Assembly (NCBI RefSeq): GCF_036967205.1
Contig: NZ_CP146022.1
Location: 3,162,001-3,226,000 of the forward strand
Length of the DNA: 64,000 nucleotides
From: Streptomyces sp. Q6
GTDB taxonomy: Bacteria > Actinomycetota > Actinomycetes > Streptomycetales > Streptomycetaceae
Direction: 5' to 3'
Shown: positions 30,850 through 63,138 of the stretch, one piece after another
How positions within the stretch are numbered: position 1 is the stretch's first letter
Layout of the letters: each line of letters begins with the position of its first letter
Program-made: the position numbers and the translations under genes
Notes under the pieces: model-generated
Told to the model about the DNA's origin: nothing
Seen by the model: only the letters and a program-made list of their open reading frames with translations
Database searches by the model: none

Positions 30850-31654
<805 letters not shown>

Positions 31655-34079: not shown

Positions 34080-34086
34080 GGTCCCC

Positions 34087-38064: not shown

Positions 38065-38093
38065 ACCGCACCCCCGCGCCCAGGAGGCACGTC

Positions 38094-43100: not shown

Positions 43101-44323
43101 CCGAGCAGCTCGACAAGCCCGTGACGCAGGACGCCGAGGAGGTGCTCGGCTACCCGTTCGCGCGTGCCTCGGCGCTGGAGCCCTGCCCGCACTACGCCCG
43201 GCTGCGCGCGACGTCACCGGTGCAGCGGGTACGGATGCCCAGCGGCGACCAGGCGTACCTCGTGACGACGTACGACGACGTGCGCACGGTGCTGTCCGAC
43301 GCGCGCTTCAGCCGGGCCGCGACGACCCGGCCCGACGCGCCGCGGATGGGCGCCGCCACCCAGAACTTCCGCAGTCTGCTGAACATGGACGCGCCCGAGC
43401 ACACCCGGGTGCGCAAGCTGGTGTCGCGGGAGTTCACCGCGCGCCGGGTCGCGGATCTGCGGCCGCGCATCCAGGAGCACACCGACCGGTTCCTGGACGC
43501 GATGGAGGCGTCGGGTTCGCCCGCGGACCTGATCCCGGCGCTCGCGTTCCCGCTGCCGGTGACGATGATCTGCGAGCTGCTCGGGGTGCCGTTCGAGGAC
43601 CGGGAGAAGTTCGGGTCCTGGTCGGCGACGTTCCTGGCGGCCGGGTCGCTGCCGGCCGAGGAGGTGCTCGCCTCGCAGGTGGCGCTGCGCGACTACCTGG
43701 CCGAGCAGGTCGCCCTCAAGCGCGACAGGCCGGGCACGGACCTGCTCTCCGCGCTGGTGTCGATCCACGACGCGGACGAGGGGCGCCTGGACGAACAGGA
43801 GCTGATCTTCCTGGGGATCTCGCTGCTCGTCGCGGGCCACGAGACGACGGTCAACCAGATCGGCAACAGCGTTCTCGCGCTGCTCACCCACCCCGAGGAG
43901 CTGGCCGCGGTGCGCGCGGACCCCGAGCGGATCGGGCGGGCCACCGAGGAGCTGCTGCGGATGTACCCGCCGGGTGACGAGGCGCTGCTGCGGATCACGC
44001 TGGAGGACGTCGAGCTGAGCGGGACCGTCGTGCCCGCGGGCAGCGCGGTGCTGCCCTCGCTCGGATCGGCGAACCGCGACGCCTGCCAGTTCGCCGGCGC
44101 GGACACCCTGGACATCTCCCGCGAGACCAACCCCCATCTGACCTTCGGGCAGGGCACCCACTACTGCCTGGGCTCCGGACTCGCCCGTGCCGAGCTCCAG
44201 ATAGCCGTCGGCACGCTGCTGCGTCGTTTCCCCACGTTGCGGCTCGCGGTGGACGAGAGTGAACTGCCCCGTCCGGAGGGCAGGTTGGTGCACGGGGTGT
44301 CGTCGCTGCCGGTCGCCTGGTGA
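43097..44323 (+). CDS. Cytochrome P450
   Basis: 408 residues. The I-helix oxygen motif is LVAGHETTVNQ, ExxR is in EELLRMYP, and the heme loop is FGQGTHYCLGSGLA with the Cys ligand. It is a soluble bacterial class I P450 of CYP105/107-like type, needing ferredoxin. A ferredoxin gene lies at 63231, but that one is 7Fe type and is probably not its dedicated partner. It is coupled to the FAD monooxygenase. Confidence 0.95.
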   Translation: MTEQLDKPVTQDAEEVLGYPFARASALEPCPHYARLRATSPVQRVRMPSGDQAYLVTTYDDVRTVLSDARFSRAATTRPDAPRMGAATQNFRSLLNMDAPEHTRVRKLVSREFTARRVADLRPRIQEHTDRFLDAMEASGSPADLIPALAFPLPVTMICELLGVPFEDREKFGSWSATFLAAGSLPAEEVLASQVALRDYLAEQVALKRDRPGTDLLSALVSIHDADEGRLDEQELIFLGISLLVAGHETTVNQIGNSVLALLTHPEELAAVRADPERIGRATEELLRMYPPGDEALLRITLEDVELSGTVVPAGSAVLPSLGSANRDACQFAGADTLDISRETNPHLTFGQGTHYCLGSGLARAELQIAVGTLLRRFPTLRLAVDESELPRPEGRLVHGVSSLPVAW

Positions 44324-44384: not shown

Positions 44385-44771
44385 ATGCGGATGACCACGG
44401 GACTCGGCTACCACCCGGCCATGCTCGGCCTCAGGTTCGTGCTCGAACTGACGGCCCTCGTCTGCTTCGGGTACTGGGCCTGGCGGACGAGCCCCGGCGC
44501 GCTGCGGTATGTCGCGGTGGTCGCGGTGCCGCTCCTGGTGGCCGTCGCCTGGGGTGTGTTCGCCACCCCCGGCGACGAGTCGCGCAGCGGCGACGCCGTC
44601 GTCGCGACCGCCGGAGGCCTGCGGCTCCTCCTCGAACTCGCCGTGTTCTTCGGCGGCGCCGCCGCGCTGTACGCGGCCGGCGCGCACATCCCGGCCGTGG
44701 CCCTGACCGCGGTCCTCCTCGCCTACCACGCCGCGTCCCTCGACCGAGTCGCCTGGTTGCTGCGCCACTGA
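44385..44771 (+). CDS. YrdB/DUF2568-like small membrane protein
   Basis: 128 residues from ATG 44385 (AAGGAG upstream). Four hydrophobic segments: about 13-32, 39-57, 75-96 and 100-120. It resembles YrdB-family integral membrane proteins of unknown function. It lies 61 bp after the P450 and 53 bp before the FkbH gene, inside the biosynthetic strand. Confidence 0.75.
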   Translation: MRMTTGLGYHPAMLGLRFVLELTALVCFGYWAWRTSPGALRYVAVVAVPLLVAVAWGVFATPGDESRSGDAVVATAGGLRLLLELAVFFGGAAALYAAGAHIPAVALTAVLLAYHAASLDRVAWLLRH

Positions 44772-44824: not shown

Positions 44825-46753
44825 GTGACCCAAGCAGTGACCACCGCCGAGGACGTTCGCCTCGGGCCGCTGGACCGGCTGCGCGCGCTGCACCAGGAGG
44901 GGAGGATCGCCGAGGAGTATCCGGCGATCGCCCCGCTCCTGGCCGATCTGGCCCTGCCCGACCCGGATTTCGCGGCGCTCGCGCGGGCCGGCCGGATTCT
45001 TTCCCGCACCTCCGTGGACCGTATCGAGGAGCTGCATCCGTCCGCCGCGGCCGTCCGGGTCGCGGTGGCCGGGCACGGCATGCTCGACGCGCTGACCCCG
45101 GCGCTGACCGCCCAGTTCGCGCGGCACGGCATACCGCTGCGCTGCGGCGAGGCCGAGTACGACTCGTGGCTGCGCGATCTCCAGGACCTGTCCAGCCCGC
45201 TGTACGCGCCGGGCACCGACCTGGCGCTGTGCGTCCTGGACGGGCAGCTCGTGTTCGACGAGCTGCCCGTGCCGTGGTCGGCCGCGGACGTGGGCGCCGC
45301 CCTCGACGCCAAGCTGGAGCAGCTGACCGCGCTGGTCGCCCGGTACGGCGAGCACGGCCCCGGCACCCTCGTGCTGAACACGCTGCCGCTGCTCGGCACG
45401 CAGCTGCGGCAGCTCGTCGACCATGCGAGCCGCGCCGAGCTGGCGGCGCGCTGGCGGGAGTTCAACGCGGCGCTGCTGCGGCTGACCGCCGCCCATCCGC
45501 GGCTGCACGTCGTCGACCTGGACGTGCTGGTCGCCGAGTCGGGGCCGGTGCGCGACACCCGCCTCGCGGTGTACGCGAAGGTGCATCTCGGCGAGGAGCT
45601 CCTCGGCCGCTACGCCCGCGAGGTCGCCCATCTGGGCCGTACCCTGCGCGGCCGGGCCAAGAAGGTGCTCGTCGTCGACCTCGACAACACGCTGTGGGAC
45701 GGCATCCTCGGCGACGACGGCCCGGACGGCATCGCGGCCGCCACCACCTACCGGGGTGAGGCGTTCGGCAAGTTCCAGAAGGCCGTCAAGCAGATCGGGG
45801 CGCAGGGCGTGCTGCTCGCGGTGAGCAGCAAGAACGACCAGGAGCCCGTGCTCGCGGTGCTGCGCGACCATCCCGACATGGTGCTGCGCGAGGGTGACTT
45901 CGCCCGGGTCCACGCCAACTGGGATCCCAAGGACGGCAATCTGCGCGCCATCGCGTCCCGGCTCAACCTGGGCGTGGACAGTTTCGTCTTCGCCGACGAC
46001 TCGCCGTTCGAGTGCGGTCTGGTCTCCTCCAGCCTGCCCGAGGTCGCGGTCGTACGCCTCGACGAGGAGCCGGCGCTGCACGTGGACCGGCTGCTCGCGG
46101 ACGGCTGGTTCGACGTGCGGGCGCTGACCGCGGAGGACCGGCTGCGCGCCGAGCAGTACCGGAGCGAGGCCGACCGGCAGGACCTCCAGGAGTCGGCGGG
46201 GTCGATGGAGGAGTATCTCGCGGCCCTGGACGTGCGCCTGGACATCTCGCCGGTCCGCGACCACGAGGTGGCCCGGATCGCCCAGATCACCCTGCGCACC
46301 AACCAGTTCAACCTGACCACCCTGCGGCTCCAGCAGACCGAGGTGCAGCAACGCCGGGACGCCGCGGACCAGTTGGTGCTCGCGGTGCGGGCCCGGGACC
46401 GCTTCGGTGACAACGGCGTCGTCGGCGCGGTCTTCGCGCACCGCGCGGACGGCGTGCTGCACCTGGACAACATGCTGCTCAGCTGCCGGGTCTTCGCCCG
46501 CGGCATCGAGCAGGCCACGGTGTCCGTGCTGCTCGCCCACGCGGCCGCGACCGGCGCTTCGGCGGTGCACGCCCGCTACCGGCCGACCGCCAAGAACCAC
46601 CGGGTCCGCGACTTCTACCCCTCGCTCGGTTTCACGACGACCGCCGAATCGGCGGACGGCGAGCTGGACTTCGCGCACGATCTCACCGACCTTCCGGAGG
46701 TGCCCGCGCACCTCACCCTCGCCGTCGACCTCACCGAGGGGCAGCCGTCATGA
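44825..46753 (+). CDS. FkbH-like glyceryl-ACP synthase (HAD-IIIC)
   Basis: 642 residues. The HAD catalytic motif VVDLDNTLWDGILGDDG lies at about 283-299, with Ser in LLAVSSKND and acidic FADDSPFE downstream. The N-terminal 270 residues are a long extra domain, and the C-terminus ends in a GNAT-like fold. FkbH enzymes dephosphorylate 1,3-bisphosphoglycerate and attach the glyceryl group to an ACP, the three-carbon source of tetronate rings and methoxymalonyl units. No methoxymalonyl genes (dehydrogenases, O-methyltransferase) are present, whereas a KASIII, an ACP and an E2-type acyltransferase are, so the tetronate role is favoured. Confidence 0.93.
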   Translation: MTQAVTTAEDVRLGPLDRLRALHQEGRIAEEYPAIAPLLADLALPDPDFAALARAGRILSRTSVDRIEELHPSAAAVRVAVAGHGMLDALTPALTAQFARHGIPLRCGEAEYDSWLRDLQDLSSPLYAPGTDLALCVLDGQLVFDELPVPWSAADVGAALDAKLEQLTALVARYGEHGPGTLVLNTLPLLGTQLRQLVDHASRAELAARWREFNAALLRLTAAHPRLHVVDLDVLVAESGPVRDTRLAVYAKVHLGEELLGRYAREVAHLGRTLRGRAKKVLVVDLDNTLWDGILGDDGPDGIAAATTYRGEAFGKFQKAVKQIGAQGVLLAVSSKNDQEPVLAVLRDHPDMVLREGDFARVHANWDPKDGNLRAIASRLNLGVDSFVFADDSPFECGLVSSSLPEVAVVRLDEEPALHVDRLLADGWFDVRALTAEDRLRAEQYRSEADRQDLQESAGSMEEYLAALDVRLDISPVRDHEVARIAQITLRTNQFNLTTLRLQQTEVQQRRDAADQLVLAVRARDRFGDNGVVGAVFAHRADGVLHLDNMLLSCRVFARGIEQATVSVLLAHAAATGASAVHARYRPTAKNHRVRDFYPSLGFTTTAESADGELDFAHDLTDLPEVPAHLTLAVDLTEGQPS

Positions 46754-47841
46754 CCTCCCTGTTCGACCGCACCACGATGGCGGGCCTGTCCCTGCCCAAC
46801 CGCATCGCCATGGCGCCGATGAACCGCGGCCGCGTCGACGACGAGGGCGTGCCGAGTCCGCTGATGGCCGAGTACTACGCGCAGCGCTCCTCGGCGGGGC
46901 TGCTGATCGCCGACTCGACGTACCCGGGGCCGCTGGGCCGCGGCTACCGGATGCCGGGCCTGTGCACCGCCGACCACGTCGAGGGCTGGACGCGGGTGAC
47001 GCGGGCCGTGCATCTCAACGGCGGCCGGATCTTCGTCCAGTTGCAGCACGCGGGGCGGATCAGCCATCCCGATCTGCTCGACGGGCAGCTGCCGGTCGCG
47101 CCGTCGGCGGTGCGCCCGCCGGACGCGGTCCTGGAGTACGAGGGCCGCAAGCCGTTCGAGGTGCCGCACGCGCTGACCACGGCCGAGGTCGAGGACACCG
47201 TCAGGGAGTTCGCGGCGTCGGCCCGGCGGGCGGTCCTCGCCGGGTTCGACGGGATCGAACTCCAGGGCGCCAACGGGTACTTGCTGCACCAGTTCATGGG
47301 CGTCAACACGAATCTGCGCACCGACCGCTACGGCGGTTCGCCGGGCGCGCGGGCCCGGATGGCGATCGAGACGGCGCAGGCCGCGGCCGAGACGATCGGC
47401 GCGCACCGGGTCGGCATCCGGCTCTCCCCCGGCAACATCTTCAACGACATGGACGAGGGCGACACCCCGGCGCTGTACGAGGCGCTGGTGCCGGCGCTGG
47501 CCCGGCTCGGCCTCGCCTATGTGCACGTCGTGGAGAACGGGGAGCGCGAGTACACCCGGCTGCTGCGCAAGCTGTGGCCGTACACGCTGATCGTCAGTCC
47601 GCGGCACGAGCCGATGGTGCATCCGACGACGGGCTGCTTCGCCGAGCCGGTGGGCCTCGACGCGGCCCGTGAGGTCCTCGACGAGCAGCTGGCCGATCTC
47701 GTCGCGTTCGGGCGGCACTTCATCGCCAACCCGGACCTGCCGCGCCGGCTCGCCGAAGGGGCGCCGCTGAACCCGCTGGACTTCGCGACGCTGTATCCGG
47801 GGCACGCGGCGGGGTACACGGATTATCCTGCGCTGCCCTGA
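46750..47841 (+). CDS. Old yellow enzyme-family NADH:flavin oxidoreductase
   Basis: 363 residues, overlapping FkbH (ATGA). FMN/TIM barrel signatures: IAMAPMNRGR, FVQLQHAGRISHPD, ELQGANGYLLHQF and TDRYGGSPGAR. It is of the NemA/alkene reductase type that reduces activated C=C bonds. It may reduce an enone or acrylyl bond in the product or an intermediate (inference). Confidence 0.93.
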   Translation: MTSLFDRTTMAGLSLPNRIAMAPMNRGRVDDEGVPSPLMAEYYAQRSSAGLLIADSTYPGPLGRGYRMPGLCTADHVEGWTRVTRAVHLNGGRIFVQLQHAGRISHPDLLDGQLPVAPSAVRPPDAVLEYEGRKPFEVPHALTTAEVEDTVREFAASARRAVLAGFDGIELQGANGYLLHQFMGVNTNLRTDRYGGSPGARARMAIETAQAAAETIGAHRVGIRLSPGNIFNDMDEGDTPALYEALVPALARLGLAYVHVVENGEREYTRLLRKLWPYTLIVSPRHEPMVHPTTGCFAEPVGLDAAREVLDEQLADLVAFGRHFIANPDLPRRLAEGAPLNPLDFATLYPGHAAGYTDYPALP

Positions 47842-47859
47842 GCCGTGCCGTACGCAGAC

Positions 47860-47897
47860 ACCTGGCGTCCGCCCGTCCCCCGGGGCGGGCGCCAGGT
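47860..47897. terminator. Bidirectional terminator between convergent genes
   Basis: acctggcg, then ccgcccg, loop, cgggcg and cgccaggt form a long stem in the 72-bp gap between the OYE gene and the SRPBCC gene. Confidence 0.75.
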
Positions 47898-47913
47898 CTG
47901 TCTGTGAGGGGCG

Positions 47914-48360
47914 CTAGGCGGTCTTCCAGGCGCCCGATTCCACGCGGGTGCGCAGCGCCTCGTTCAGGTCGGTGAAGCGGCCGACGGTCTCCTTGATGAT
48001 CTTCTGCGTGAACGGCACGAGCACGCCCGCGAACGTCTCGGCCTGCACGAGCAGCGTGCCGCCGTCGGGGCGCGGCTTCAGCTCGAAGAGGTGCTCGCCG
48101 TCGAAGATGCCGGGCAGCCACAGCCGGCCGCGCCAGCGCAGTTCGCGCCCCGGCTCCGCGGCCACCACGGTCGGCTTTATCACCATGTGCCGCCCGCTGG
48201 CCTGCCGGAACGTGAGGTCGAGCTGTTCCCCGGGCACGGTCTCGCCCTTCGCCTCGACGATGAACGGGTTCCACTCGGGGAAGCGGCCGAAGTCGGTGAG
48301 GACCGCCCAGACGTCCTCGGGCGACCCGTCGATCACCACTTCGGTAGAGATACGGCGCAC
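47914..48360 (-). CDS. SRPBCC-fold (polyketide cyclase/START-like) protein
   Basis: 148 residues from GTG 48360 (GGAAGGAG upstream). It has the typical START-like pattern: VVIDGSPEDVWAVLTDFGRF at the N-terminus, FPEWNPF and ELRWRGRLWLPG. These bind hydrophobic ligands, and some act as polyketide cyclases. It is the only minus-strand gene in this part of the cluster, divergent from the FAAL gene across a 198-bp gap. Function in the pathway is uncertain; it may be a binding or cyclisation helper. Confidence 0.85.
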   Translation of the reverse strand: MRRISTEVVIDGSPEDVWAVLTDFGRFPEWNPFIVEAKGETVPGEQLDLTFRQASGRHMVIKPTVVAAEPGRELRWRGRLWLPGIFDGEHLFELKPRPDGGTLLVQAETFAGVLVPFTQKIIKETVGRFTDLNEALRTRVESGAWKTA

Positions 48361-48558
48361 CAGCTGATCTCCTTCCGCGGCCCCGGAAACGGGCCGCCGC
48401 AGACACGAACTCCCTCACGCTATCCGCTGATCGGGCCTCACCCCAGGACGCCTCGTTATCGCACAAGCGTCGCCTTAGGGCCGCGTCGGAGCATCTGCGG
48501 TGTCCAAGCAGCCTCGCCGGCGCCACGCCAGCGGATCCTGAGAGGTCAGGGAACGACG

Positions 48559-50349
<1,791 letters not shown>

Positions 50350-50350
50350 C

Positions 50351-52159
50351 ATGGACCATCCGCCGTACCGACTGGCCGAGGACCTCGACCGCTTCCTCGG
50401 CGACCCCGACGATCCGCGGACCACGTTCTCGTACGAGCGGACGATCGCGCTCGACGACGCGGAGGCGTTCCCCGCGGACATCTGCCGCAGCCTTCAGGAG
50501 TGGGGGCTGAGCGACTACTACGTGCCGGTCAGGCACGGCGGACGGCTCGCCGACTACGAGCAGCTGCTCCAGCTCATCAGGGCCGTGGCCCGGCGCGATC
50601 TGACGACCGCGATCGGGCACGGCAAGACGTACCTGGGCGGTGTCTGCGTGTGGGTGGCGGGCGACGACGCGCAGGCCGAGCGGCTCGGCGCGGACGTCCG
50701 CGCCGGGGTGCCGGTCTCGCTCGGCCTGACCGAGCGGGCGCACGGCAGCGATCTGCTCGCCGGGCAGGTCGCCGGTGAGCCCGCGCCTCAACTGCCGGGC
50801 GGTGGCTGGCTGGTGAGCGGCGAGAAGTGGCTCATCAACAACGCCACCCGCGGCTCGCTGATCGCCCTGCTCACCCGCACCGACCCGGCGGGCGGCCCGC
50901 GCGGCTTCAGCGTGCTGCTCGTCGACAAGCGGGAGCTGGACGAGGGCGCCTACCGGCATCTGCCCAAGGTGCACACGCACGGCATCCGCGGCGCCGACAT
51001 CTCCGGTGTCGCCTTCGACGGCGCGAAGGTGCCGGCGAGCGCGCTGGTCGGCACCGAGGGCGGCGGCGTCGAGACCGTCATCAAGGCGTTGCAGCTGACC
51101 CGCACCATGTGCGCGGCGCTGTCGCTGGGCGCCGCCGACCACGGGCTGCGCATCGCCCTGGACTTCGCCGAGCAGCGCGAGCTGTACGGGCGCCGCCTGA
51201 TCGACCTGCCCAAGGCACGGCGCGCCCTGGGCGAGGCCTCGGCCGACGTGCTGCTGCACGAGGCGGTGGCCCTGTACGCGTCGCGGGCCGTGCACACGCA
51301 GACCGCCGAGATGTCGCTGACGTCGGCGGTCACCAAGTACCTGCTGCCCACCGGCACCGAGGAGGTGCTCGCCGAGCTGACCCGGCTGCTCGGCGCCCGC
51401 GCCTTCCTCAAGGACGTGCACGCGCACGGCCGGTTCCAGAAGCTCGAACGGGACCACCGGATCGTGGGCCTGTTCGACGGCAACACGCTGGTGAACCTCA
51501 ACTCCCTGGTGAACCAGTTCCGTTCGCTGCTGCGCGGCCACCGGCGCGCGAGCGGCGACGTGGCCGGCGCGGCCGCCGCCTTCGACCTGGGGCGGCCGCT
51601 GCCGCCGCTCGACCCGACGGCGCTGTCGGTCGTCGCGCGGCGCGGCAGCGGTGTCGTCGCCACGCTGCCGGACCGGGTCGCGGACCTGGAACGGCGCGCG
51701 GCCGAGCGGCCCGAGCTGGTCCCCGTACGGGACGCGGCGCGTCGGCTGCTCGCGACGAGCGAGGCGGTGCACGAGGAGATGGCGGCGCACCAGGACGTGC
51801 TGACGGATCTGCCGCCGGCGGCGTTCGAGACGGCCCGCCGGTACGCGCTGTGCTACGCGGGCGCCGCCTGTGTGGGCCTGTGGACGGCGAACGCGGACGC
51901 GCTCGCCGCCGACGACGGGGCCGGCGCGCTGTGGCGGGACGGTCTGTGGCTGCGCGGCGCGCTGCTGCGGATCCTGGCACGCCTCGACCCGGCGACCCCG
52001 GACGGCGAGGCGCACCACACGTACGAAGCGCTGCTCGCCCAGGTGCGGGCGGCGCGGACGGAGGGCCGGCTGTTCGCGCTGTTCGACCAGCGCGCACCGG
52101 CCGCCGCCCCCGAGAAGGCCGCCGCGGCGGCCGGTGAGAACGAGAGGACGTCATGCTGA
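50351..52159 (+). CDS. Acyl-CoA/acyl-ACP dehydrogenase (first of a pair)
   Basis: 602 residues from ATG 50351, one base after the FAAL stop. The ACAD fold shows FAD and substrate-loop signatures: LGLTERAHGSDLL, GGWLVSGEKWLINNATRG and FAEQRELYGRRLIDLPKARR. It is longer than ordinary ACADs by about 200 residues at the C-terminus. Near FAAL and ACP genes such enzymes act on ACP-bound chains, introducing a double bond (known for lipopeptide starters; applied here by inference). It is paralogous to the next gene. Confidence 0.9.
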   Translation: MDHPPYRLAEDLDRFLGDPDDPRTTFSYERTIALDDAEAFPADICRSLQEWGLSDYYVPVRHGGRLADYEQLLQLIRAVARRDLTTAIGHGKTYLGGVCVWVAGDDAQAERLGADVRAGVPVSLGLTERAHGSDLLAGQVAGEPAPQLPGGGWLVSGEKWLINNATRGSLIALLTRTDPAGGPRGFSVLLVDKRELDEGAYRHLPKVHTHGIRGADISGVAFDGAKVPASALVGTEGGGVETVIKALQLTRTMCAALSLGAADHGLRIALDFAEQRELYGRRLIDLPKARRALGEASADVLLHEAVALYASRAVHTQTAEMSLTSAVTKYLLPTGTEEVLAELTRLLGARAFLKDVHAHGRFQKLERDHRIVGLFDGNTLVNLNSLVNQFRSLLRGHRRASGDVAGAAAAFDLGRPLPPLDPTALSVVARRGSGVVATLPDRVADLERRAAERPELVPVRDAARRLLATSEAVHEEMAAHQDVLTDLPPAAFETARRYALCYAGAACVGLWTANADALAADDGAGALWRDGLWLRGALLRILARLDPATPDGEAHHTYEALLAQVRAARTEGRLFALFDQRAPAAAPEKAAAAAGENERTSC

Positions 52160-53916
52160 CCGGTTCCCCGCCCCAGGGGGCGCACCCCGCGCCCGCCCTC
52201 GACCAGGAGGCCGACGTCGCCGCGCGGGTGGCCGAGTTGGAGACCCGCCTGGGCGATCCGACCGACCCGTCCAACGAAGTGTCGTACGCCCGGCTGCTCG
52301 CGGCGGACGAGGCCGGCGAGATGTCCGAGGCCGGTGAGCGGATCCTCGACGAGGCCGTACTGAACGCCGAGTTCGTGCCGCGCGAGCACGGCGGCCGCCT
52401 GGACCGCATCGACTCGCTGGTGCGGGTCATGCGGCAGGTGTTCCGCCGGGACGTGGCGCTCGGCCTCGGCTACGGCGTCACGTCGTTCATGGCGGGCGTC
52501 AACGTGTGGACGGCCGGCTCCGCCGAGCAGCGCGAGCGGCTCGCCCGGATCCTCCTCGACGGCGGCAAGGTGTCCGTCGCGTACCACGAGCTGGCGCACG
52601 GCAACGACTTCGTGCGCAACGAGTTCGAGGCGCGGCCCGCGCCGGACGGCGGGTTCCGGCTGGCCGGCGAGAAGCAGGTCATCAACAACGCCGACCGGGC
52701 CGCCGCCTGGGTCCTGTTCAGCCGCACCAGCCCGGCGCCGGGCAGCCGCAGCCACTCGGTGCTGCTCGGCGAGCGCGCCGAGCTCGACGCGGACACCTAC
52801 AAGGTGCTGCCGCGCTACGGCGCGACCGGGGTGCGCGGCTGCCACCTGTCGGGGCTGCACTTCGAGGACACCCCGGTCGGCGACGCCGCGCTCGTCGGCG
52901 AGGTCGGGCAGGGCGTCGAACTCGCCCTGCGCGCCTTCCAGATCACCCGTGCCGCGGTGCCCGGCATGGCGCTCGGCGCGGCGGACACGGCGCTGCGCAC
53001 GGTGGTGTCGTTCGCGCGTGGCCGGGAGCTGTACCGCAAGTCCGTGATGGACATCCCGCACGCCAGGGCGACCCTGTCCGGGGCCTTCCTCGACCTGCTG
53101 ATCTGCGACAGCCTCTCGCTGACCGCGACCCGCGCGGTGCATCTGCTGCCCGAGGAGACGAGCGTCTACGCGGCGGCCACCAAGTACCTGGTGCCGAAGA
53201 TGCTCACGGAGACGATGCACGATCTGTCGATCGTGCTCGGCGCCCGCTTCTACGTCCGCGAGGGCGAGTTCGGCATCTTCCAGAAGCACATCAGGGACCT
53301 GCCGGTGCTCAGCCTCGGGCACGCGGGCTCGGCGGCCTGCCAGGCCACGATCATCCCGCAGCTCGCCCGGCTGGCCCGCCGGTCGTGGTTCTCCGGGGAG
53401 GCGGCGCCCGGCGCGCTGTTCCGGCCGCGCGAGGACCTGCCCGGCATCCCCTTCGAGCGCCTCACGCTGGCCAGCGGCCGCGACAGCCTGTCGGCGTCGC
53501 TGGTCGCCTCGGTCGACGAGCTGCCGTCGGGCTCCCCCGTGGAGCGGGCGGTGCACAGCGTGGCGCTGAAGATGATGGACGAGCTGCGCCAGCTCCAGGA
53601 GTCCTCGCTCGCGCTGGCCCCGCAGGACCGCACGGCGCTCGCCTCGCCCGGCACGTTCGCCCTCGCCGACCGGTACGCGGTGCTGCTCGCCGCCGCCTCG
53701 GTGATCGGGGTGTGGCAGCAGGCGCAGGGCGGCGACGACGCGTTCCTCGCCGATCCGGCCTGGCTCGCCGCGGTGCTGCACCGGCTCGCGGTGCGGCTCG
53801 GGCAGCACCCCGCGGACCTGCCGGACGGCGTCGACGCCCGCATCCACGAGGAGGTGCTGCGCCGCTTCGAGCAGCGCCGCAGCTTCGACCTGTACGACAC
53901 CCCGCTGGCCGGCTGA
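52153..53916 (+). CDS. Acyl-CoA/acyl-ACP dehydrogenase (second of a pair)
   Basis: 587 residues from ATG 52153, overlapping the previous gene by 7 bases. It has the same architecture as its neighbour, with matching LGDPTDPSNEVSYARLL start, HELAHGNDFVRNEF, GEKQVINNADRAA and FARGRELYRKSVMDIPHAR. The sequences differ enough that the two probably do different oxidations or form a heteromer. The C-terminal extension is retained. Confidence 0.9.
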   Translation: MLTGSPPQGAHPAPALDQEADVAARVAELETRLGDPTDPSNEVSYARLLAADEAGEMSEAGERILDEAVLNAEFVPREHGGRLDRIDSLVRVMRQVFRRDVALGLGYGVTSFMAGVNVWTAGSAEQRERLARILLDGGKVSVAYHELAHGNDFVRNEFEARPAPDGGFRLAGEKQVINNADRAAAWVLFSRTSPAPGSRSHSVLLGERAELDADTYKVLPRYGATGVRGCHLSGLHFEDTPVGDAALVGEVGQGVELALRAFQITRAAVPGMALGAADTALRTVVSFARGRELYRKSVMDIPHARATLSGAFLDLLICDSLSLTATRAVHLLPEETSVYAAATKYLVPKMLTETMHDLSIVLGARFYVREGEFGIFQKHIRDLPVLSLGHAGSAACQATIIPQLARLARRSWFSGEAAPGALFRPREDLPGIPFERLTLASGRDSLSASLVASVDELPSGSPVERAVHSVALKMMDELRQLQESSLALAPQDRTALASPGTFALADRYAVLLAAASVIGVWQQAQGGDDAFLADPAWLAAVLHRLAVRLGQHPADLPDGVDARIHEEVLRRFEQRRSFDLYDTPLAG

Positions 53917-53985
53917 CCGAGACGGCTTCCCCTGACGACCGTGAACCAACAGCCCGAACCGCCCGACTCGCCTCAGGAGTACACC

Positions 53986-54287
53986 GTGTCCGCTACCTCT
54001 CCCTCCGCTCCCGACTCGCTGGCCGGCCACACCCGTGACTCGCTGATCACGTGGCTGTCCGACCGCATCGCCCTCTACCTGAAGCGGCAGCCCGCCGAGA
54101 TCGACCCGAGCGTGCCGCTGGCCGAGTACGGGCTCGACTCGGTCGCCGCGTTCAGCCTGTGCGGCGACATCGAGGAGGACTTCGACTTCGTCCTCGAACC
54201 GACGGCGGCCTGGGACTACCCGACCGTGCAGGCGCTCGCCGACCACCTGCTCTCGCAGTTCGCGGCCGCGGAAGGCGGCGGCCGCTG

Positions 54288-54288
<1 letters not shown>
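53986..54288 (+). CDS. Acyl carrier protein (starter)
   Basis: 100 residues from GTG 53986, chosen for CAGGAG just upstream (an earlier GTG at 53941 lacks one). The phosphopantetheine Ser is residue 52 in EYGLDSVAAF. It lies between the ACADs and the PKS, with the stop overlapping the PKS start (TGATG), so it likely receives the fatty acyl group from the FAAL and hands it to the KS. Confidence 0.92.
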
Positions 54289-57283
<2,995 letters not shown>

Positions 57284-57287
<4 letters not shown>

Positions 57288-58327
57288 CCCAGGAAGCAGC
57301 GGCACCGGCCGCACCCGTCGCCCACATCGCCTCCATCGGCACGGCCCTGCCGGGCGACCCGGTGGACAACGCGACGCTGGCCAAGGTGCTCGGCGTCAAC
57401 GAGGAGTGGATCGAGGTCTTCATCGGTACGAAGACCCGGCACTTCGCCCGGGACCTGGCCACCGGCGAGGTCCGCTGGTCCCTCGCGGACCTGTGCGCGA
57501 GCGCGGCCCGCAAGGCCCTGGACGCGGACGGGGTGGACGCCGCCGACATCGACTTCATCCTGCTCGGCACCGCGACCCCGGACACCCTGATGCCGGCGAC
57601 CGTCAACAACGTCGCCGACCAGCTGGGCCTCGACCAGGTACCCACGTTCCAGCTCCAGTCGGGCTGCGCGGGCGCCGTGCAGGCGCTCAGCGTCGCCCAG
57701 ACGATGATCGCCTCCGGGCAGTACCGGACCGGTCTCGTCATCGGCGGCGACGTGTGCAGCAAGCACCTCGACGTGCAGCGCGACCTGTCCGGCGCCGCCC
57801 CCAGCGACCTGGTGAACTTCGTGCTCTTCGGGGACGGCGCGGGCGCGGCCGTGCTCACCGCCGAGCCGGTCGGCCAGCGGGTCGCGGTGCGCCATGTCCT
57901 CAACCGGTTCACGGGTCTCGGCCGCAAGGCGGGCCAGGTCATCGAGTGGTTCGGCCTCGCCGACCGCTACGACGACCGGCAGGCGCTGACCGAGGACTAC
58001 AAGGCCATCGAGGAGGGCGTGCCGGTGATGGCCGTGGAGATCCTCTGGGAGCTCCTCGGCGAACTCGACTGGGACGCCGACGACCTGGACTACCTGCTGC
58101 CGCCGCAGCTGTCCGGCCGGATGACCCGCAAGATCACCGAGGAGCTCGGGGTGCCGACGGCCCGCGAGATCTCCTGTGTCGCCGACACCGGCAACAACGG
58201 CAACGCGCTGCCCTTCCTGCAGATCGCCGGACTCCTCGAAGAGATGAAGGCCGGCGAGAAGGCCCTCGCCGTCGCCGTCGAGTCCAGCAAGTGGATCAAG
58301 GCCGGTTTCGCCCTGGAGAAGATATGA
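57284..58327 (+). CDS. KASIII-like tetronate-forming ketosynthase
   Basis: 347 residues, overlapping the PKS stop (ATGA). It is FabH-like, with Cys128 in LQSGCAGAVQAL and Asn304 in DTGNNGNA. The HQAN segment that supplies the FabH His reads PPQLS here, with Pro274 at the His position, so the triad is altered. In RK-682 and agglomerin pathways a homologous enzyme joins glyceryl-ACP to a beta-ketoacyl-ACP by C-C and C-O bond formation; the neighbours (FkbH, small ACP, E2-type acyltransferase) support that job. Confidence 0.9.
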
Positions 58328-58569
58328 GCCAGCCCACCAGCACCTTCACCCTCGACGACTTCACGGCCCTGGTCCGCGACGAGATCGGCATGCCGCTCGA
58401 AGCGGAGCAGGTGCACGCCGACTTCGACGAACTGCCCGACTGGGACTCCCTCTACCTGCTCAAGCTGGTCACCGCCCTGGAGCTGGCCACCGGCCGTCCG
58501 GTGCCGGTCGGCAAGGTCCTGGAGGAGCGCTCCCTGAAGGGCATCTACGACCTGGCGGTGGGCGGGTGA
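58324..58569 (+). CDS. Acyl carrier protein (glyceryl carrier)
   Basis: 81 residues, overlapping the KASIII stop. The phosphopantetheine Ser is residue 42 in PDWDSLYLLKL, a variant of the usual DSL context typical of stand-alone glyceryl-ACPs. Its position between the KASIII and the E2-type acyltransferase matches tetronate cassettes, where this ACP is the FkbH partner. Confidence 0.9.
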   Translation: MSQPTSTFTLDDFTALVRDEIGMPLEAEQVHADFDELPDWDSLYLLKLVTALELATGRPVPVGKVLEERSLKGIYDLAVGG

Positions 58570-59447
58570 GCGGGGCCACGGCGCACGGCTCGCACACGGT
58601 CATCGAGCGGCGCCGCCGGCACACCCTGTTCTTCCTGGAGTGGGCGAACGGGCAGCGTCCCGTGCACCTGGACACCGACATCGACATGACGCGGATCCTG
58701 GAGCACCGGGAGGCGGCCCGCGCCGACGGGCTGCGCTACTCGTACGTGACGTATCTGCTGCACGCGGCGGGCCGCGCCCTGGCCCGCCACCCGGAGGCCA
58801 ACGCGGTGATGGCGCCGGGCTGGCCGAGCGCGTGGCGCGCGCCGCGTATCGTCCGGTTCCGCTCGGTGACCGCGAAGCTGGCCCTGGACCGGCCGGTCGA
58901 CGGTCAGCGGGTGGTCCTCTCGGCACTGGTGCCGCGCCTGGAGCGGGCCTCGCTGCGCGAGATCCAGGAGCAGGTCGACCGCTACCGGGGCCAGGAGGCC
59001 GCGGATCTGCCGGAGTTCAAGGGCGTACGCATGCTGGGGCGGCTGCCGCTGCCCCTCGGCCGGGCGGCGTTCGGTGCCGCCCTGCGCGACGCCCGTAAGC
59101 GGCCCGGTGTCTTCGGCACCGTGTCGGTCAGTTCGCTGGGGCAGGGCGCCGTCGACGGGTTCCACTCGGCGGGCGGCACCGCCGTCACGCTGTGCGCGGG
59201 CCGGATCGCGCAGCGGCCCGTGGTCCGCGCGGACGGCACGATCGAGGCAGCGCCCGTCATGCGGCTCGGCCTCACCTTCGATCACCGGGTCGTCGACGGG
59301 GCGGCCGCGGCCGCACTCCTCACCGATCTCCACGACACCATGGAGGCCTTTGATGACGGCTCCGGGGGGCACGTCCCCGCCGCGCACACTCGGGGAGCCG
59401 ATCGTGATCACGGGGCCGGGAGGGGACTGGCGGGCAGTCCGCGATGA
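58566..59447 (+). CDS. E2-type (2-oxoacid dehydrogenase) acyltransferase
   Basis: 293 residues from GTG 58566, overlapping the ACP stop. Only the catalytic domain of the dihydrolipoamide acyltransferase fold is present, with the His-Asp motif FDHRVVDGA. There is no lipoyl domain. In agglomerin and related tetronate pathways this enzyme type acetylates the hydroxymethyl group of the new ring so that acetate can be eliminated. The C-terminal 30 residues run into the next gene's frame and have poor codon bias, so the true protein may end earlier or be unconserved there. Confidence 0.9.
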   Translation: MSGATAHGSHTVIERRRRHTLFFLEWANGQRPVHLDTDIDMTRILEHREAARADGLRYSYVTYLLHAAGRALARHPEANAVMAPGWPSAWRAPRIVRFRSVTAKLALDRPVDGQRVVLSALVPRLERASLREIQEQVDRYRGQEAADLPEFKGVRMLGRLPLPLGRAAFGAALRDARKRPGVFGTVSVSSLGQGAVDGFHSAGGTAVTLCAGRIAQRPVVRADGTIEAAPVMRLGLTFDHRVVDGAAAAALLTDLHDTMEAFDDGSGGHVPAAHTRGADRDHGAGRGLAGSPR

Positions 59448-60231
59448 CCTCGACCGGCACAACGCCGCGGTCCTCTACGCCCGCCTGGACGACTGGCGTC
59501 CGGAGCGGGCGGGCGGGCCGCGCCTGCGGGCGCTGCTCGGGCGGGACTGGGCGCGCTTCCTGGAGCTGACGCACCCGGACGTGCGCACCCGGTTCGCGTC
59601 GTCTCGGGTGCTGCTCAAGTTCGCGGCGGCGGCGGCGCTCCATGTGCCGCCGCAGTCCGTGGAGTTGGGCTACACGCACACCGGGCGGCCGTTCCTGCGC
59701 GGCTACGACGGCGTGCACATCAGCCTCAGCCACACCGACGAGCTGCTCCTGGTGGGCCTCGCCACCGGCGGGGTCATCGGTGTGGACGCCGAGCGCGCGG
59801 ACCGCAAGCTGTACGGTCCCGGGCTCGGCCGGCACCTGTGCACCCCGCACGAGGTGCGGTCCATCGAGGCGATGCCGGAGCAGGAGCGCAACCCGGCTCT
59901 GGTGCGCCTGTGGACCCTCAAGGAGGCGTACAGCAAGGCGATCGGCCTGGGCATGCAGTTCCGTTTCACCGACTTCGGGTTCCGCCCGGACGGCACGGCG
60001 ACGGAGGTGCTCCAGCCGGACGGCGAGCCGGGTTCGGACGGCGAGTGGACGTTCGGCACGTACACGCTCGACGACACGTACGTGGTGAGCGTCGCGGTCG
60101 GCGACGCCGGGTTCGGCTCCGCCGCGGACACGGCGGCCGGCACGGCGCTCGACGCGGGCATCGTCGACGCGCTCGCCGAGGTCCTGGGCGACGACGACCA
60201 CGGAGGGCCGGAGCCGGACGACTGGTGGTGA
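59353..60231 (+). CDS. Sfp-type 4'-phosphopantetheinyl transferase
   Basis: 292 residues from ATG 59353 with GGAGG 6 bases upstream; GTG 59404, with GGGGAG, is a possible alternative and would halve the overlap with the E2 gene. Motifs: FLRGYDGVHISLSHTDEL, GVIGVDAERADRK (Mg-binding) and RLWTLKEAYSKAIG. It would activate the three carrier protein domains of the cluster. The acidic C-terminal tail (GDDDHGGPEPDDW) is unusual but harmless. Confidence 0.93.
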   Translation: MTAPGGTSPPRTLGEPIVITGPGGDWRAVRDDLDRHNAAVLYARLDDWRPERAGGPRLRALLGRDWARFLELTHPDVRTRFASSRVLLKFAAAAALHVPPQSVELGYTHTGRPFLRGYDGVHISLSHTDELLLVGLATGGVIGVDAERADRKLYGPGLGRHLCTPHEVRSIEAMPEQERNPALVRLWTLKEAYSKAIGLGMQFRFTDFGFRPDGTATEVLQPDGEPGSDGEWTFGTYTLDDTYVVSVAVGDAGFGSAADTAAGTALDAGIVDALAEVLGDDDHGGPEPDDWW

Positions 60232-60273
60232 TCCCCTCCCGAGGGACGCGAGAGAGGGGTGCGTGAGCGAAGC

Positions 60274-60297
60274 GGCCGGGCGACTGCCCGGCCTTTT
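60274..60297 (+). terminator. Terminator after the phosphopantetheinyl transferase
   Basis: ggccgggc, loop gact-like, then gcccggcc followed by tttt: one of the few hairpins in the window with a T run. It separates the operon from the DUF4260 gene. Confidence 0.8.
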
Positions 60298-60406
60298 CGC
60301 TGTGCCGGGCCGCCACGGGGCCCCCGACCTCGTACAAGCGGGCCACAAGCCCCCGCGAGAAGACTGAGCGGCATCAGCGCGGCTCGCTCGCGAGAGGAGA
60401 CACCGT

Positions 60407-60868
60407 ATGAAAGCCGACCTCAGGGTCGCCCCCGCACCTCCCCGCACCACCGCACCCGGCGGCTCGCCGGCCCGCCTCCCCGGCTCGGACGTCCCGGCCG
60501 ACGGGTGGACCTGGCGCAGCCCCGGCGGAAAGCTCCTCAGCGCCGCCGTGGGCGCCGCCGCGTTCGGTACGGGCGTCGCGCTCGGCGGCGTCGTCAGCTG
60601 GCCGTTCTGGGCCGCGCTCGTCGCCCCCGACCTGGCGTTCCTGCACAAGGGCGCGACGCCGCCTGCGGGTCCCGGGCACGTCTCGCCGGAGACCGTCCGC
60701 GTCTACAACACGCTGCACGACCCGCGGCTCGCCGTGGGCCTCGTCGCCGCGGGCGCGCTGACCGCCTCGCGGCCGCTGCTGCTCGCGGGGCTCGGCTGGA
60801 CCACGCACATCGCCGTGGACCGGGCGTTCGGATTCGGCACCCGGCGCCCCGACGGCGCCATCCACTGA
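60407..60868 (+). CDS. DUF4260-like small membrane protein
   Basis: 153 residues from ATG 60407 (GAGAGGAGAC upstream). It has three or so hydrophobic segments (about 42-60, 63-80 and 105-130) and a charged proline-rich start. Sequence such as VYNTLHDPRLAVGL and TTHIAVDRAFGFG fits the DUF4260 family. Function is unknown; it starts the last operon of the cluster. Confidence 0.75.
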   Translation: MKADLRVAPAPPRTTAPGGSPARLPGSDVPADGWTWRSPGGKLLSAAVGAAAFGTGVALGGVVSWPFWAALVAPDLAFLHKGATPPAGPGHVSPETVRVYNTLHDPRLAVGLVAAGALTASRPLLLAGLGWTTHIAVDRAFGFGTRRPDGAIH

Positions 60869-60885
60869 CCCACGGACGGGAAGCC

Positions 60886-61992
60886 ATGGACCACCTCGAA
60901 GAGCTGACGGAATTCGCCCGGCTGCACGCGCGCGGCCAGGGCATGAAGCCCGCCCACGCCGACTCCGTGCTGGCCGGGATCGACAACGACACGGTCGGCG
61001 ACCCCGCCTCGTGGGCCGCGGTGTGGACCGGCGCGGGCAAGGTCGCCGAGGCCCGCGGCGACCTCCTGGACGCCTGCCGGCACTACGCCCTGGCCCGCTT
61101 CCCGTACCACGCCGACGACGACCGGGTGCTCGCGCAGTCCCTGTGCGTGGACACCTTCGACCGCTGGCGCCAGGCCCAGCAGGGCATCCAGCGCCTGGAG
61201 TTCAGCACGCTGGAGGGTTCGTTCGCCGCGTGGGCGTCGGGCCTGGACGCGCGGCGCCCGAAGCCGCTGGTGATCGTGATGGGCGGCATCGTCAGCGTCA
61301 AGGAGCAGTGGGCGCCGCTGCTGCCGCTGCTGCGCAAGCTGGGCTTCGCCGCGGTGGTGACCGAGCTGCCGGGCGTCGGCGAGAACACCCTGCGCTACGC
61401 CCCTGACTCCTGGCGGATGCTCACGTCGCTGCTCGACCGCCTGGAGGGGCGGGCCCGCGTCGCGGACACGTCGATGCTCGCCCTCAGCTTCAGCGGCCAT
61501 CTGGCGCTGCGCGCCGCCGCCCAGGACCGCAGGATCAGCCGCATCCTCACGGTGGGCGCCCCGGTCACCGACTTCTTCACCGACGAGGAGTGGTGGCCGC
61601 GCGTCCCCGGTATCACCGTCGACACGCTGCGCCGTCTCACCCGCACCGACTCCGAGACCGAACTGCGTTCGGTGCTGGCCGAGTTGGCGCTGACCCCGCA
61701 GGAGCTGCGGCGGGTCAGGATCCCCGTGCGGTACGTGGCCTCCAGCCGGGACGAGATCATCCCGGCCCGCGACCAGGCGCTGCTGCGCCGCGATGTGGAG
61801 GACGTCCGCTTCAAGGTCTTCGACGACGTCCACGGCTCCCCCGCCCACCTGGGCGCGATGCGCCGCTGGCTGTTCTCCTCGCTGCTGCGCCTGCGCCTGC
61901 GGGGCGCCCCCGCGCAGGAGCTGACGGTGCCGGCCGCGCCCACCCCGCTCGACGCCCCCGCACCCCTGGACGAGAGGCCACGCCATGACTGA
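60886..61992 (+). CDS. Alpha/beta hydrolase, FrsA-like (candidate acetate eliminase)
   Basis: 368 residues from ATG 60886, 17 bp after the DUF4260 gene. An N-terminal helical part of about 115 residues precedes the hydrolase core. The nucleophile region is ALSFSGHLALR (variant of GxSxG), the acidic residue is in SSRDEIIPA and the His in DVHGSPAH. Alpha/beta hydrolases of this size catalyse elimination of the acetylated tetronate to the exocyclic methylene in agglomerin-type pathways. Which of the two hydrolases here does that is not certain. Confidence 0.82.
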   Translation: MDHLEELTEFARLHARGQGMKPAHADSVLAGIDNDTVGDPASWAAVWTGAGKVAEARGDLLDACRHYALARFPYHADDDRVLAQSLCVDTFDRWRQAQQGIQRLEFSTLEGSFAAWASGLDARRPKPLVIVMGGIVSVKEQWAPLLPLLRKLGFAAVVTELPGVGENTLRYAPDSWRMLTSLLDRLEGRARVADTSMLALSFSGHLALRAAAQDRRISRILTVGAPVTDFFTDEEWWPRVPGITVDTLRRLTRTDSETELRSVLAELALTPQELRRVRIPVRYVASSRDEIIPARDQALLRRDVEDVRFKVFDDVHGSPAHLGAMRRWLFSSLLRLRLRGAPAQELTVPAAPTPLDAPAPLDERPRHD

Positions 61993-62164
61993 TTCCGCAC
62001 CGTCCGCGCGTCACCGCACGGTCCGGCCCTGGCAGTCCCTGGCCTCGCTCGGGGTGACCGAGAGCGATCTGACCACCGTCCATCACCGGCCCGTGGTGCC
62101 GCCCCGTCTGCCCGGTGACCGGCCGGGCGAGCGGCACCACCGCCGCGGCCCCGAGGGAGCCTGA
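61985..62164 (+). CDS. 59-residue conserved-looking small protein
   Basis: The ATG at 61985 overlaps the end of the hydrolase gene by 8 bases; the TGA at 62162-62164 is 5 bp before the next ATG. Third-position GC is very high throughout, supporting translation. It begins MTDSAPSARHRTVRPWQSLA, is basic and proline/arginine-rich, and has no membrane segment. No function is assigned; its tight spacing between the two hydrolase genes suggests it is part of the operon. Confidence 0.6.
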   Translation: MTDSAPSARHRTVRPWQSLASLGVTESDLTTVHHRPVVPPRLPGDRPGERHHRRGPEGA

Positions 62165-62169
62165 CGACC

Positions 62170-63138
62170 ATGACCCCGCCGAGCACCGGCTCCGCGATCC
62201 GGATGCGCTTCCGTACCGTGCACGGCTATCGACGGGCCTTCCGGATGGCCGGCAAGGGCCGGGCGATCCTGCTGATCCACGGCATCGGCGACTCCTCCGA
62301 CACCTGGCGCGACATCATGCCGGGTCTGGCCCGCAACTACCGGGTCATCGCCCCGGACCTGCTGGGCCACGGAGCCTCCGACAAGCCGCGCGCCGACTAC
62401 TCGCTGGCCGCGTACGCCAACGGCATGCGGGACCTGCTCGGCGTCATCGGCGTCGAGCGGGTCACGCTGGTGGGCCACTCGCTGGGCGGTGCCGTCGCCA
62501 TGCAGTTCGCCTACCAGTTCCCCGAGCGCTGCGACCGGCTCGTGCTGGTCGGTTCGGGCGGCATCGGCCGCGAGGTGACCCCGCTGCTGCGGGCCGCGTC
62601 GCTGCCGGGCGCGGAGCTGCTCCTGATGGCGCTGCGGCTGCCGACGATGCGCACCCAGGTGGGCCTGGCCGTGAAGGCGTTGCAGTTCCTCGACACCGGC
62701 CTCGGGGTGGACGCGCCCGATCTGCTGCGGGTGGTGGACGCCCTGCCGGACGGCACCTCGCGCAGCGCCTTCATCCGCACGCTGCGGGCCGTGGTGGACG
62801 GCCGCGGCCAGGTCGGCACGATGCTGGACCGCTGTTATCTGGCCCAGGGCATGCCGACGATGCTGGTGTGGGGCGGCCGCGACCAGGTGGTGCCGGCGAC
62901 GCACGCGGGACTCGGCCACGTGGCGATGCCGGGCAGCCGCCTGGAGATCTTCGAGGACGCGGGCCACTTCCCGTTCCGCACCGATCCGCAGCGCTTCGAG
63001 ACGGTGCTGCGGGACTTCATCGCGACCACCGAGCCCGCCCAGTACAGCGCGGAGCAGTGGCGCCGCATGCTCCGTACCCGCAAGGCCACGGTCCGCACGA
63101 CGACGTCCCGTACGGAACAGCTCCCGCGCACCGCCTGA
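62170..63138 (+). CDS. Alpha/beta hydrolase
   Basis: 322 residues. The fold is canonical: LLIHGIGDSSDTWRDI (oxyanion loop), VTLVGHSLGGAVAMQFA with nucleophile Ser, Asp in VWGGRDQVVPA and His in FEDAGHFPF. It is the last gene of the cluster strand. It may hydrolyse a thioester, ester or lactone, or be the eliminase of the tetronate pathway. Confidence 0.9.
   Translation: MTPPSTGSAIRMRFRTVHGYRRAFRMAGKGRAILLIHGIGDSSDTWRDIMPGLARNYRVIAPDLLGHGASDKPRADYSLAAYANGMRDLLGVIGVERVTLVGHSLGGAVAMQFAYQFPERCDRLVLVGSGGIGREVTPLLRAASLPGAELLLMALRLPTMRTQVGLAVKALQFLDTGLGVDAPDLLRVVDALPDGTSRSAFIRTLRAVVDGRGQVGTMLDRCYLAQGMPTMLVWGGRDQVVPATHAGLGHVAMPGSRLEIFEDAGHFPFRTDPQRFETVLRDFIATTEPAQYSAEQWRRMLRTRKATVRTTTSRTEQLPRTA

Follow-up and report, generated by a model that had tools for sequence, protein, structure and literature searches.

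Gene content of the locus

We analyzed a 64,000-nucleotide stretch of the Streptomyces sp. Q6 genome (assembly GCF_036967205.1, contig NZ_CP146022.1, positions 3,162,001 to 3,226,000; hereafter "the window"), which carries a probable gene cluster for a tetronate whose acyl half would be derived from a fatty acid. The source genome is 8.95 megabases (Mb) in two contigs. Open reading frame (ORF) analysis combined with Pfam and NCBIfam scans showed long reading frames with high GC at third codon positions for the cluster genes. The core, from FkbH to a predicted eliminase, occupies 44825-61992 on the + strand and, with the hydrolase gene that follows it, consists of:

44825..46753, +, FkbH, predicted glyceryl-acyl carrier protein (ACP) synthase (TIGR01686, 316 bits; cut-off 147)
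46750..47841, +, old yellow enzyme (OYE), probable accessory ene-reductase (Pfam Oxidored_FMN, 221 bits)
48550..50349 (open frame from 48091), +, putative fatty acyl-AMP ligase (FAAL; Pfam AMP-binding, 230 bits, longer frame)
50351..52159, +, ACAD1, D-type acyl-ACP dehydrogenase (ACAD) with Asp376 in the catalytic Glu slot, proposed delta-4 (Pfam ACAD domains)
52153..53916, +, ACAD2, H-type acyl-ACP dehydrogenase with His390 in the catalytic Glu slot, proposed delta-2 (Pfam ACAD domains)
53992..54288 (open frame from 53941), +, ACP1, stand-alone, proposed carrier of the starter acyl chain (Pfam PP-binding, 54 bits on 53941-54288)
54285..57287, +, ketosynthase-acyltransferase-ACP (KS-AT-ACP), one predicted malonyl module of a polyketide synthase (PKS; Pfam on the longer frame 54051-57287)
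57284..58327, +, predicted tetronate-forming KASIII (PDB 5by7, 387 bits; tree)
58324..58569, +, ACP2, putative glyceryl carrier (D-S-L motif read by eye; conserved position)
58566..59447, +, E2-type acyltransferase (E2), predicted Agg4/QmnD3/AbmA4 role (Pfam 2-oxoacid_dh, 72 bits)
about 59404..60231, +, 4'-phosphopantetheinyl transferase (PPTase; Pfam ACPS, 56 bits, longer frame 59074-60231)
60407..60868, +, small protein (open frame; no NCBIfam match)
60886..61992, +, predicted AbyA5/Agg5-type eliminase, FrsA-like (PDB 5no5 and 4ywf, both AbyA5)
62170..63138, +, additional alpha/beta hydrolase (Pfam Abhydrolase_1, 126 bits)

The middle and N-terminal ACAD domains of ACAD2 score slightly below their Pfam cut-offs. 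With the FAD monooxygenase (FMO), cytochrome P450 and DUF2568 genes upstream, the gene order over 41.8-63.1 kb is FMO-P450-DUF2568-FkbH-OYE-FAAL-ACAD-ACAD-ACP-(KS-AT-ACP)-KASIII-ACP-E2-PPTase-DUF4260-eliminase-hydrolase, where DUF4260 stands for the 60407-60868 protein, which we take to be DUF4260-like. The ends of FkbH/OYE, ACAD1/ACAD2, ACP1/PKS, PKS/KASIII, KASIII/ACP2, and ACP2/E2 overlap by a few bases, an arrangement that looks as in an operon. An earlier note had proposed a tetronate cluster with a FAAL-ACAD-ACAD-ACP starter unit feeding a single unreduced KS-AT-ACP. Every part that it named is present where it was placed, with FMO and P450 just left of 44825; its gene list lacked the PPTase (about 59404-60231) and the 60407-60868 protein.

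To estimate selection, the window was compared with the closest of the genomes compared (G103), in which all 22 cluster genes are present at 55-95% protein identity. The ratio of nonsynonymous to synonymous substitution rates (dN/dS) was 0.12-0.38 for 21 of the 22 genes and 0.55 for a DXS-like gene. The highest value among core genes, 0.38, belongs to ACAD1; the values for E2 (0.22) and the eliminase (0.30) indicate purifying selection on both. Because all 22 genes recur in G103 under low dN/dS, the gene set is not a chance one; judged by these substitution ratios, the cluster is real, conserved, and maintained by purifying selection.

KASIII, FkbH, and the PKS module

The best PDB match of the KASIII is 5by7 (387 bits), whose title gives only "3-oxoacyl-ACP synthase III"; the next chain, of the FabH type, scores 118 bits. 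In the KASIII alignment, the active Cys128 and a Pro (Pro274) in the slot of the FabH His are present in 90 of 90 rows. A KASIII tree of 92 rows, built by a quick method with a very distant outgroup, places the window protein with KASIIIs of FkbH-bearing loci. One starred set comprises 74 rows, of which 68 derive from loci whose fetched stretch includes a FAAL. Within this set, the window KASIII falls in an unstarred clade (40 rows, support 88) drawn mostly from loci with FAAL, both ACADs, and E2; the set also includes 14 rows with one ACAD and no E2, 9 rows lacking both ACAD and E2, and a distinct two-ACAD group of 8. Outside the starred set lie PDB 5by7 and KASIIIs from FAAL-less loci, some of which adjoin multi-KS genes. 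The KASIII, PKS, E2, and ACAD alignments, the KASIII tree, and the starter trees described below omit nine named loci judged to be copies of sample genomes, as well as rows below identity or coverage limits.

Among the matches listed, FkbH sequences fall into two groups separated by an identity gap: a long type in 34 places at 48% or more, and the rest at 42% or less. By this measure the window FkbH is a member of the long tetronate type. The FkbH and KASIII results thus bear out the tetronate reading of the earlier note. Long-type FkbH genes of 53% identity also occur at G053:C8 1623606-1625477 and G069:C1 348513-350363, neither genome being among the 67 KASIII-positive ones, and a second long FkbH (40% identity) is encoded in the source genome outside the window (G000:C1 5750679-5752442). 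The frame at 58324-58569 is ACP-like, with a D-S-L motif found by eye at the position expected for ACP2.

The PKS gene (54285-57287) gave no ketoreductase (KR), dehydratase (DH), or enoylreductase (ER) match in the Pfam scan, so that the single unreduced module proposed earlier stands. The KS active-site Cys-His-His is retained in 67 of 67 homologues, and the four positions of the AT motif H-A-F-H in 62, 67, 66, and 67 of the 67, a motif type that we take to be malonyl-specific.

Distribution among Streptomyces

The KASIII search covered 392 genomes of the same genus, one per species (384 genomes in the H-type ACAD and E2 searches, 376 in the D-type search), and gave a match at an E value of 1e-40 or better in 67. 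From these, 68 loci in 63 genomes were analyzed. G168, G070, and G305, as well as a second copy in G226, were left out; G303 fell under the 40% limit; and G116 was classed as two-ACAD by hand, its D-type gene lying just beyond the fetched stretch. The sample was collected by likeness to the window KASIII and may under-count other tetronate routes.

FAAL is within the stretch in 49 of the 68 loci: 30 with both ACADs, 10 with the H-type only, and 9 without ACAD. The rest comprise 17 loci with neither FAAL nor ACAD and 2 with an H-type ACAD and no FAAL. Two of the 17 (G028 and G309) are fragmentary, with FAAL and the ACADs on a different contig; for the other 15, contig breaks aside, no FAAL was found nearby. 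Two tetronate-type loci, L181 (G322) and L182 (G268), carry an H-type ACAD, FMO, E2, and a diverged eliminase, with no FAAL match. In G128:C2, FkbH and E2 matches (2151205-2154061) lie ~7 Mb from FAAL-ACAD-KASIII (9298731-9302150), which suggests that the cluster is split there; the H-type ACAD of this genome contains one internal TAG.

Among named loci, 23 of 56 combine FAAL, both ACADs, and KASIII, including those of S. longisporoflavus, S. brasiliensis, S. griseosporeus, S. niveus, and Kitasatospora indigofera. A plasmid search of 14 records identified Streptomyces sp. NBC_01435 (L141), which has FAAL, both ACADs, E2, and an eliminase together with an unannotated KASIII at 79% identity. The cluster type is not rare and is more widespread than the earlier note suggested.

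The FAAL-ACAD-ACAD-ACP starter cassette

Both window ACADs are of the FAAL-linked type of 587-602 amino acids. In alignments, the slot of the catalytic Glu of ordinary acyl-CoA dehydrogenases holds Asp in 45 of 45 ACAD1-type sequences and His in 62 of 62 ACAD2-type sequences. Both types are shared with FAAL loci outside tetronate clusters (His in 20/20, Asp in 8/8); the 20 comparison loci were picked via their H-type ACAD. The order FAAL, D-type, H-type, ACP is found in all eight paired non-tetronate loci, five of which show condensation motifs of nonribosomal peptide synthetases (NRPSs). The gene after ACP1 in the window encodes KS-AT-ACP, not an NRPS starter condensation domain. A recurring non-tetronate locus type (L198-L201, L203, and L204) contains FAAL, an H-type ACAD, an ACP, a partial KS-like match, and a PPTase.

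The FAAL tree requires three changes between tetronate and other loci and the H-type ACAD tree requires four, at least three of them on starred branches. These are quick trees with some long branches, and their non-tetronate rows were selected by H-type ACAD. These changes indicate that the starter cassette has moved between tetronate and non-tetronate clusters, in one direction or the other.

Among the matches listed, the H-type ACAD occurs without a D-type partner in 82 of 150 places, while the D-type (identity of at least 44%) has an H-type neighbor in 68 of 78. Ten D-type places have no H-type neighbor among the matches listed, and all but G283:C7 and G375:C1 were inspected. In one case, an H-type match at 50% spans 59% of its length; in another, there is a relative at 37%; five places have only short matches (17-19% of the length), and the last lies at a contig end. 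Some H-type-like match thus adjoins in seven of the eight. Since the H-type is often alone and the D-type is mostly beside it, the pattern fits the H-type being the first desaturase (delta-2) and the D-type the second (delta-4). In PMC9113097, delta-2 and delta-4 are assigned to two ACAD types, Tar5/MlcH and Tar6/MlcI; as of that paper (2021), a mechanistic study of FAAL-linked ACADs was not known.

It is possible, though in our view doubtful, that the same pathway includes a single net desaturation, the H-type enzyme making a 2-enoyl chain (perhaps cis) while its D-type partner isomerizes, assists, or acts weakly, so that the side chain would be mono-unsaturated. In its favor, both ACADs lack the canonical Glu, and for rotihibin, made by genes in the same order, a cis-2-decenoyl chain was proposed and the second dehydrogenation considered possibly non-essential (PMC8552735). 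On the other hand, the products of taromycin and malacidin clusters, which have two ACADs, are delta-2,4 (PMC9113097), the Asp of the D-type is invariant, and ACAD1 evolves under purifying selection at its dN/dS of 0.38.

Predicted genes for exomethylene formation

In comparison with the PDB, the FrsA-like protein (60886-61992) hits AbyA5 with E values of 2e-93 (PDB 5no5) and 1.8e-92 (4ywf). On the strength of this similarity, it is the exomethylene-forming eliminase, the counterpart of Agg5. The alpha/beta hydrolase that the earlier note counted in the tetronate cassette, at 62170-63138, is, by homology, an additional, less conserved gene distinct from the eliminase; its homologue was found in 12 of the 30 two-ACAD loci as fetched.

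The E2 motif D-H-R-x-x-D-G is intact in 55 of 55 aligned rows. Within the fetched stretches, E2 is present in 26 of the 30 two-ACAD loci and the eliminase in 25; the remaining four genomes (G088, G128, G138, and G298) encode E2 elsewhere, and the other five encode the eliminase elsewhere. All eight loci in the FAAL class that has neither E2 nor ACADs have lost eliminase residue His316, which the window protein carries and which is retained in all 50 other rows. Of the eight genomes concerned, seven are not among the 48 E2-positive genomes, among the matches listed, and the eighth, G159, has E2 in another cluster. Three FAAL-less loci (L164, L167, and L168) keep His316 with no E2 in the stretch, E2 being encoded ~80 kb away in the genome. 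The homologues lacking His316 (L144, L145, L147, L150, L153; G063, G196, G217) are candidates for altered or lost function.

RK-682 of Streptomyces sp. 88-682 retains the 5-hydroxymethyl group and carries a saturated chain. Its FkbH (RkE) and KASIII (RkD) build a 3-acyl tetronate with ACPs, as would their counterparts in the window, which adds two ACADs, E2, and the eliminase. The window cluster might likewise yield an ordinary 5-hydroxymethyl product, with E2 and the eliminase inactive or used elsewhere. FAAL, KS-AT-ACP, KASIII, FkbH, and ACP are indeed common to classes without E2 in the fetched stretch; one such class is represented in S. fildesensis INACH3013 (L105) by a one-ACAD set, FAAL-ACAD-ACP-PKS-KASIII-FkbH-ACP, and S. 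fildesensis So13.3 is reported to have a cluster with >50% similarity to that of RK-682 (PMC6522549). We nevertheless consider this outcome unlikely, given that the E2 motif is intact in every row, that His316 persists in all rows except those of the class lacking E2 and ACADs, and that dN/dS is low for E2 and the eliminase (0.22 and 0.30).

Tailoring, regulatory, and neighboring genes

The genes to the left of FkbH are:

32985..34079, +, AfsA homologue (hotdog), probably butyrolactone-type signaling (Pfam AfsA, 70 bits)
34087..36723, +, SARP-type regulator with BTAD and NB-ARC (Pfam BTAD, 168 bits)
37130..37906, +, type II thioesterase (Pfam Thioesterase, 128 bits)
37971..39635, +, degenerate transketolase/DXS-like protein, accessory (Pfam Transketolase_C, 47 bits; NCBIfam dxs, 58 bits, cut-off 466)
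40031..41767, -, MFS exporter (Pfam MFS_1, 182 bits)
41817..43100, +, FMO (Pfam FAD_binding_3, 150 bits)
43097..44323, +, cytochrome P450 (best NCBIfam model pentalenolactone synthase, 278 bits, below its cut-off of 700)
44409..44771 (open frame from 44259), +, DUF2568 small protein, accessory (Pfam DUF2568, 78 bits, longer frame)

FMO is present in 22 of the 30 two-ACAD loci and in none of the 36 stretches of loci without the ACAD pair. Most of the latter reach only ~9-10 kb upstream of KASIII, and in the window clade FMO usually lies 9-19 kb upstream; this absence therefore proves little, the stretches being too short to reach the FMO position. A whole-genome search of 35 genomes found FMO matches of 52-64% identity only in G116, G122, G159, and G285, each of which also carries a two-ACAD locus; there was no match in G028, with its split two-ACAD cluster, and nothing above 38% identity in the other 30 genomes searched. 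FMO thus tracks the two-ACAD state, pointing to the unsaturated chain as its substrate.

Within the 30 two-ACAD loci, OYE and the DUF2568 protein each occur in two, the window and G103, and on this distribution OYE is an accessory, strain-specific addition. The DXS-like gene, whose usual thiamine-diphosphate motif we presume lost from inspection by eye, is found in four (the window, G103, G123, and G236), and a homologue of the 60407-60868 protein in 15. In some relatives, the small proteins at 44409-44771 and 60407-60868 are retained close to the eliminase or P450/FMO. An AfsA homologue is present in 16 of the 30 loci as fetched, often adjoining SARP, and SARP homologues lie near the cluster edge in many relatives. 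As judged by this recurrence, the AfsA homologue and SARP (32985-36723) are part of the conserved surroundings. What appears to be a separate gene set lies left of the cluster (24371-31654) and encodes arylmalonate decarboxylase/racemase-like and 2-hydroxyacid dehydrogenase proteins, an amidase, a solute-binding protein, and an ABC ATPase.

Proposed pathway

The cluster probably encodes a fatty-acid-fed pathway to a 3-dienoyl 5-methylene tetronate (our estimated probability is roughly 0.78). FAAL would adenylate a fatty acid and load it onto ACP1, which the cluster's own PPTase would convert to the holo form. On ACP1, desaturation at C2-C3 by the H-type ACAD and at C4-C5 by the D-type would give a 2,4-dienoyl chain, to which KS-AT-ACP would add one malonyl unit, leaving the beta-keto group. 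FkbH would transfer a glyceryl unit from 1,3-bisphosphoglycerate to ACP2, and KASIII would form the C-C and C-O bonds, releasing a 3-dienoyl-5-hydroxymethyl tetronate. E2 would then acetylate the hydroxymethyl, and the AbyA5-like enzyme would eliminate acetate to yield the 5-methylene tetronate. FMO and P450 may subsequently oxidize the product, probably in or near the unsaturated chain. The roles of tetronate genes in glyceryl transfer, tetronate formation, acetylation, and elimination are as described in PMC5819245, PMC4979870, and PMC7489565.

Several points weigh against this pathway or parts of it. Gene set, gene order, and conservation are observed; the biochemical steps, and with them the product structure, are deduced from the genes. 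The FAAL is putative, as five NCBIfam fatty acyl-AMP ligase models match at 377-455 bits, all below their own cut-offs, next to a general AMP-binding match. Without the catalytic Glu, one or both ACADs may not perform plain dehydrogenation. The assignment of delta-2 to the H-type is made by analogy; PMC9113097 gives the S. ambofaciens accessions in an order that might point to the reverse gene arrangement, and rotihibin, with the same order of genes, is proposed to contain mainly one cis-2 double bond (PMC8552735). FMO is missing from 8 of the 30 two-ACAD loci. The starts of the DUF2568 protein, FAAL, stand-alone ACP, and PPTase genes are approximate.

Methoxymalonyl-ACP gene sets comprise a short FkbH, a 3-hydroxyacyl-CoA dehydrogenase, and an O-methyltransferase. 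Although FkbH-type and acyl-CoA dehydrogenase genes co-occur in such sets too (PMC6395733), it is extremely improbable that FkbH and the ACADs of the window make a methoxymalonyl- or hydroxymalonyl-ACP extender with KASIII as the starter enzyme, and we rejected this possibility: FkbH is of the long type, the ACADs are FAAL-linked, the AT motif is malonyl-type, and neither partner enzyme was found among the scanned genes. Foxicin, retrieved by an FkbH search, was rejected since its FkbH is fused to a PKS-NRPS (PMC5318452).

Comparison with known systems

Because the L105 set and the reported RK-682-like cluster come from two strains of one species, S. fildesensis (PMC6522549), the use of FAAL with a single PKS module is probably not new, and FAAL, KS-AT-ACP, and the tetronate core together probably represent the RK-682 architecture. 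The five-gene tetronate and exomethylene set is common to the window, agglomerin (Agg4, Agg5), and abyssomicin (AbmA1-A5, AbyA5); unlike agglomerin and the spirotetronates, the window cluster contains ACADs and would assemble its acyl half with a single KS-AT-ACP module acting on a fatty acid loaded by FAAL. Quartromicin shares with the predicted window product the exomethylene tetronate, formed there via QmnD3/QmnD4. Its monomers are joined by cycloaddition (PMC4979870), a step that the pathway proposed for the window does not include.

FAAL-ACAD-ACAD-ACP starter cassettes are also used by ramoplanin and enduracidin. The lipopeptides rotihibin (FAAL-ACAD-ACAD-ACP; PMC8552735), taromycin, and malacidin share FAAL, two ACADs, and a free ACP with the window, where the cassette would feed a ketosynthase instead of the first NRPS condensation domain. 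Searches of the open-licence literature for FAAL together with tetronate terms gave no paper with both among those listed, and the terms "tetron" and "RK-682" are absent from the 2025 FAAL review PMC11837247. The earlier note had not recognized the combination from any described tetronate. Within the limits of that literature, each module is known alone and the combination is undescribed; the claim narrows inasmuch as FAAL, PKS, and core are probably RK-682-like and the starter cassette is known from lipopeptides.

A bolder and less likely reading is that these loci define an undescribed, widespread class of fatty-acid-derived 3-(2,4-dienoyl)-5-methylene tetronates made via non-canonical ACADs, with His390 (first) and Asp376 (second) replacing Glu. 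With its exomethylene group as dienophile and its conjugated diene, such a molecule could dimerize or cyclize by [4+2] addition; if so, skeletons resembling those of quartromicin or the spirotetronates would become accessible from fatty acids. The replacement of Glu by Asp or His throughout 45 and 62 sequences makes the open mechanism of FAAL-linked ACADs testable. The family forms a natural series, with zero, one, or two ACADs and with or without E2, in which steps can be compared between strains. If the proposed pathway is right, FAAL-fed tetronates would make up a large share of tetronate biosynthesis in Streptomyces (49 of 68 loci, 30 of them with both ACADs).

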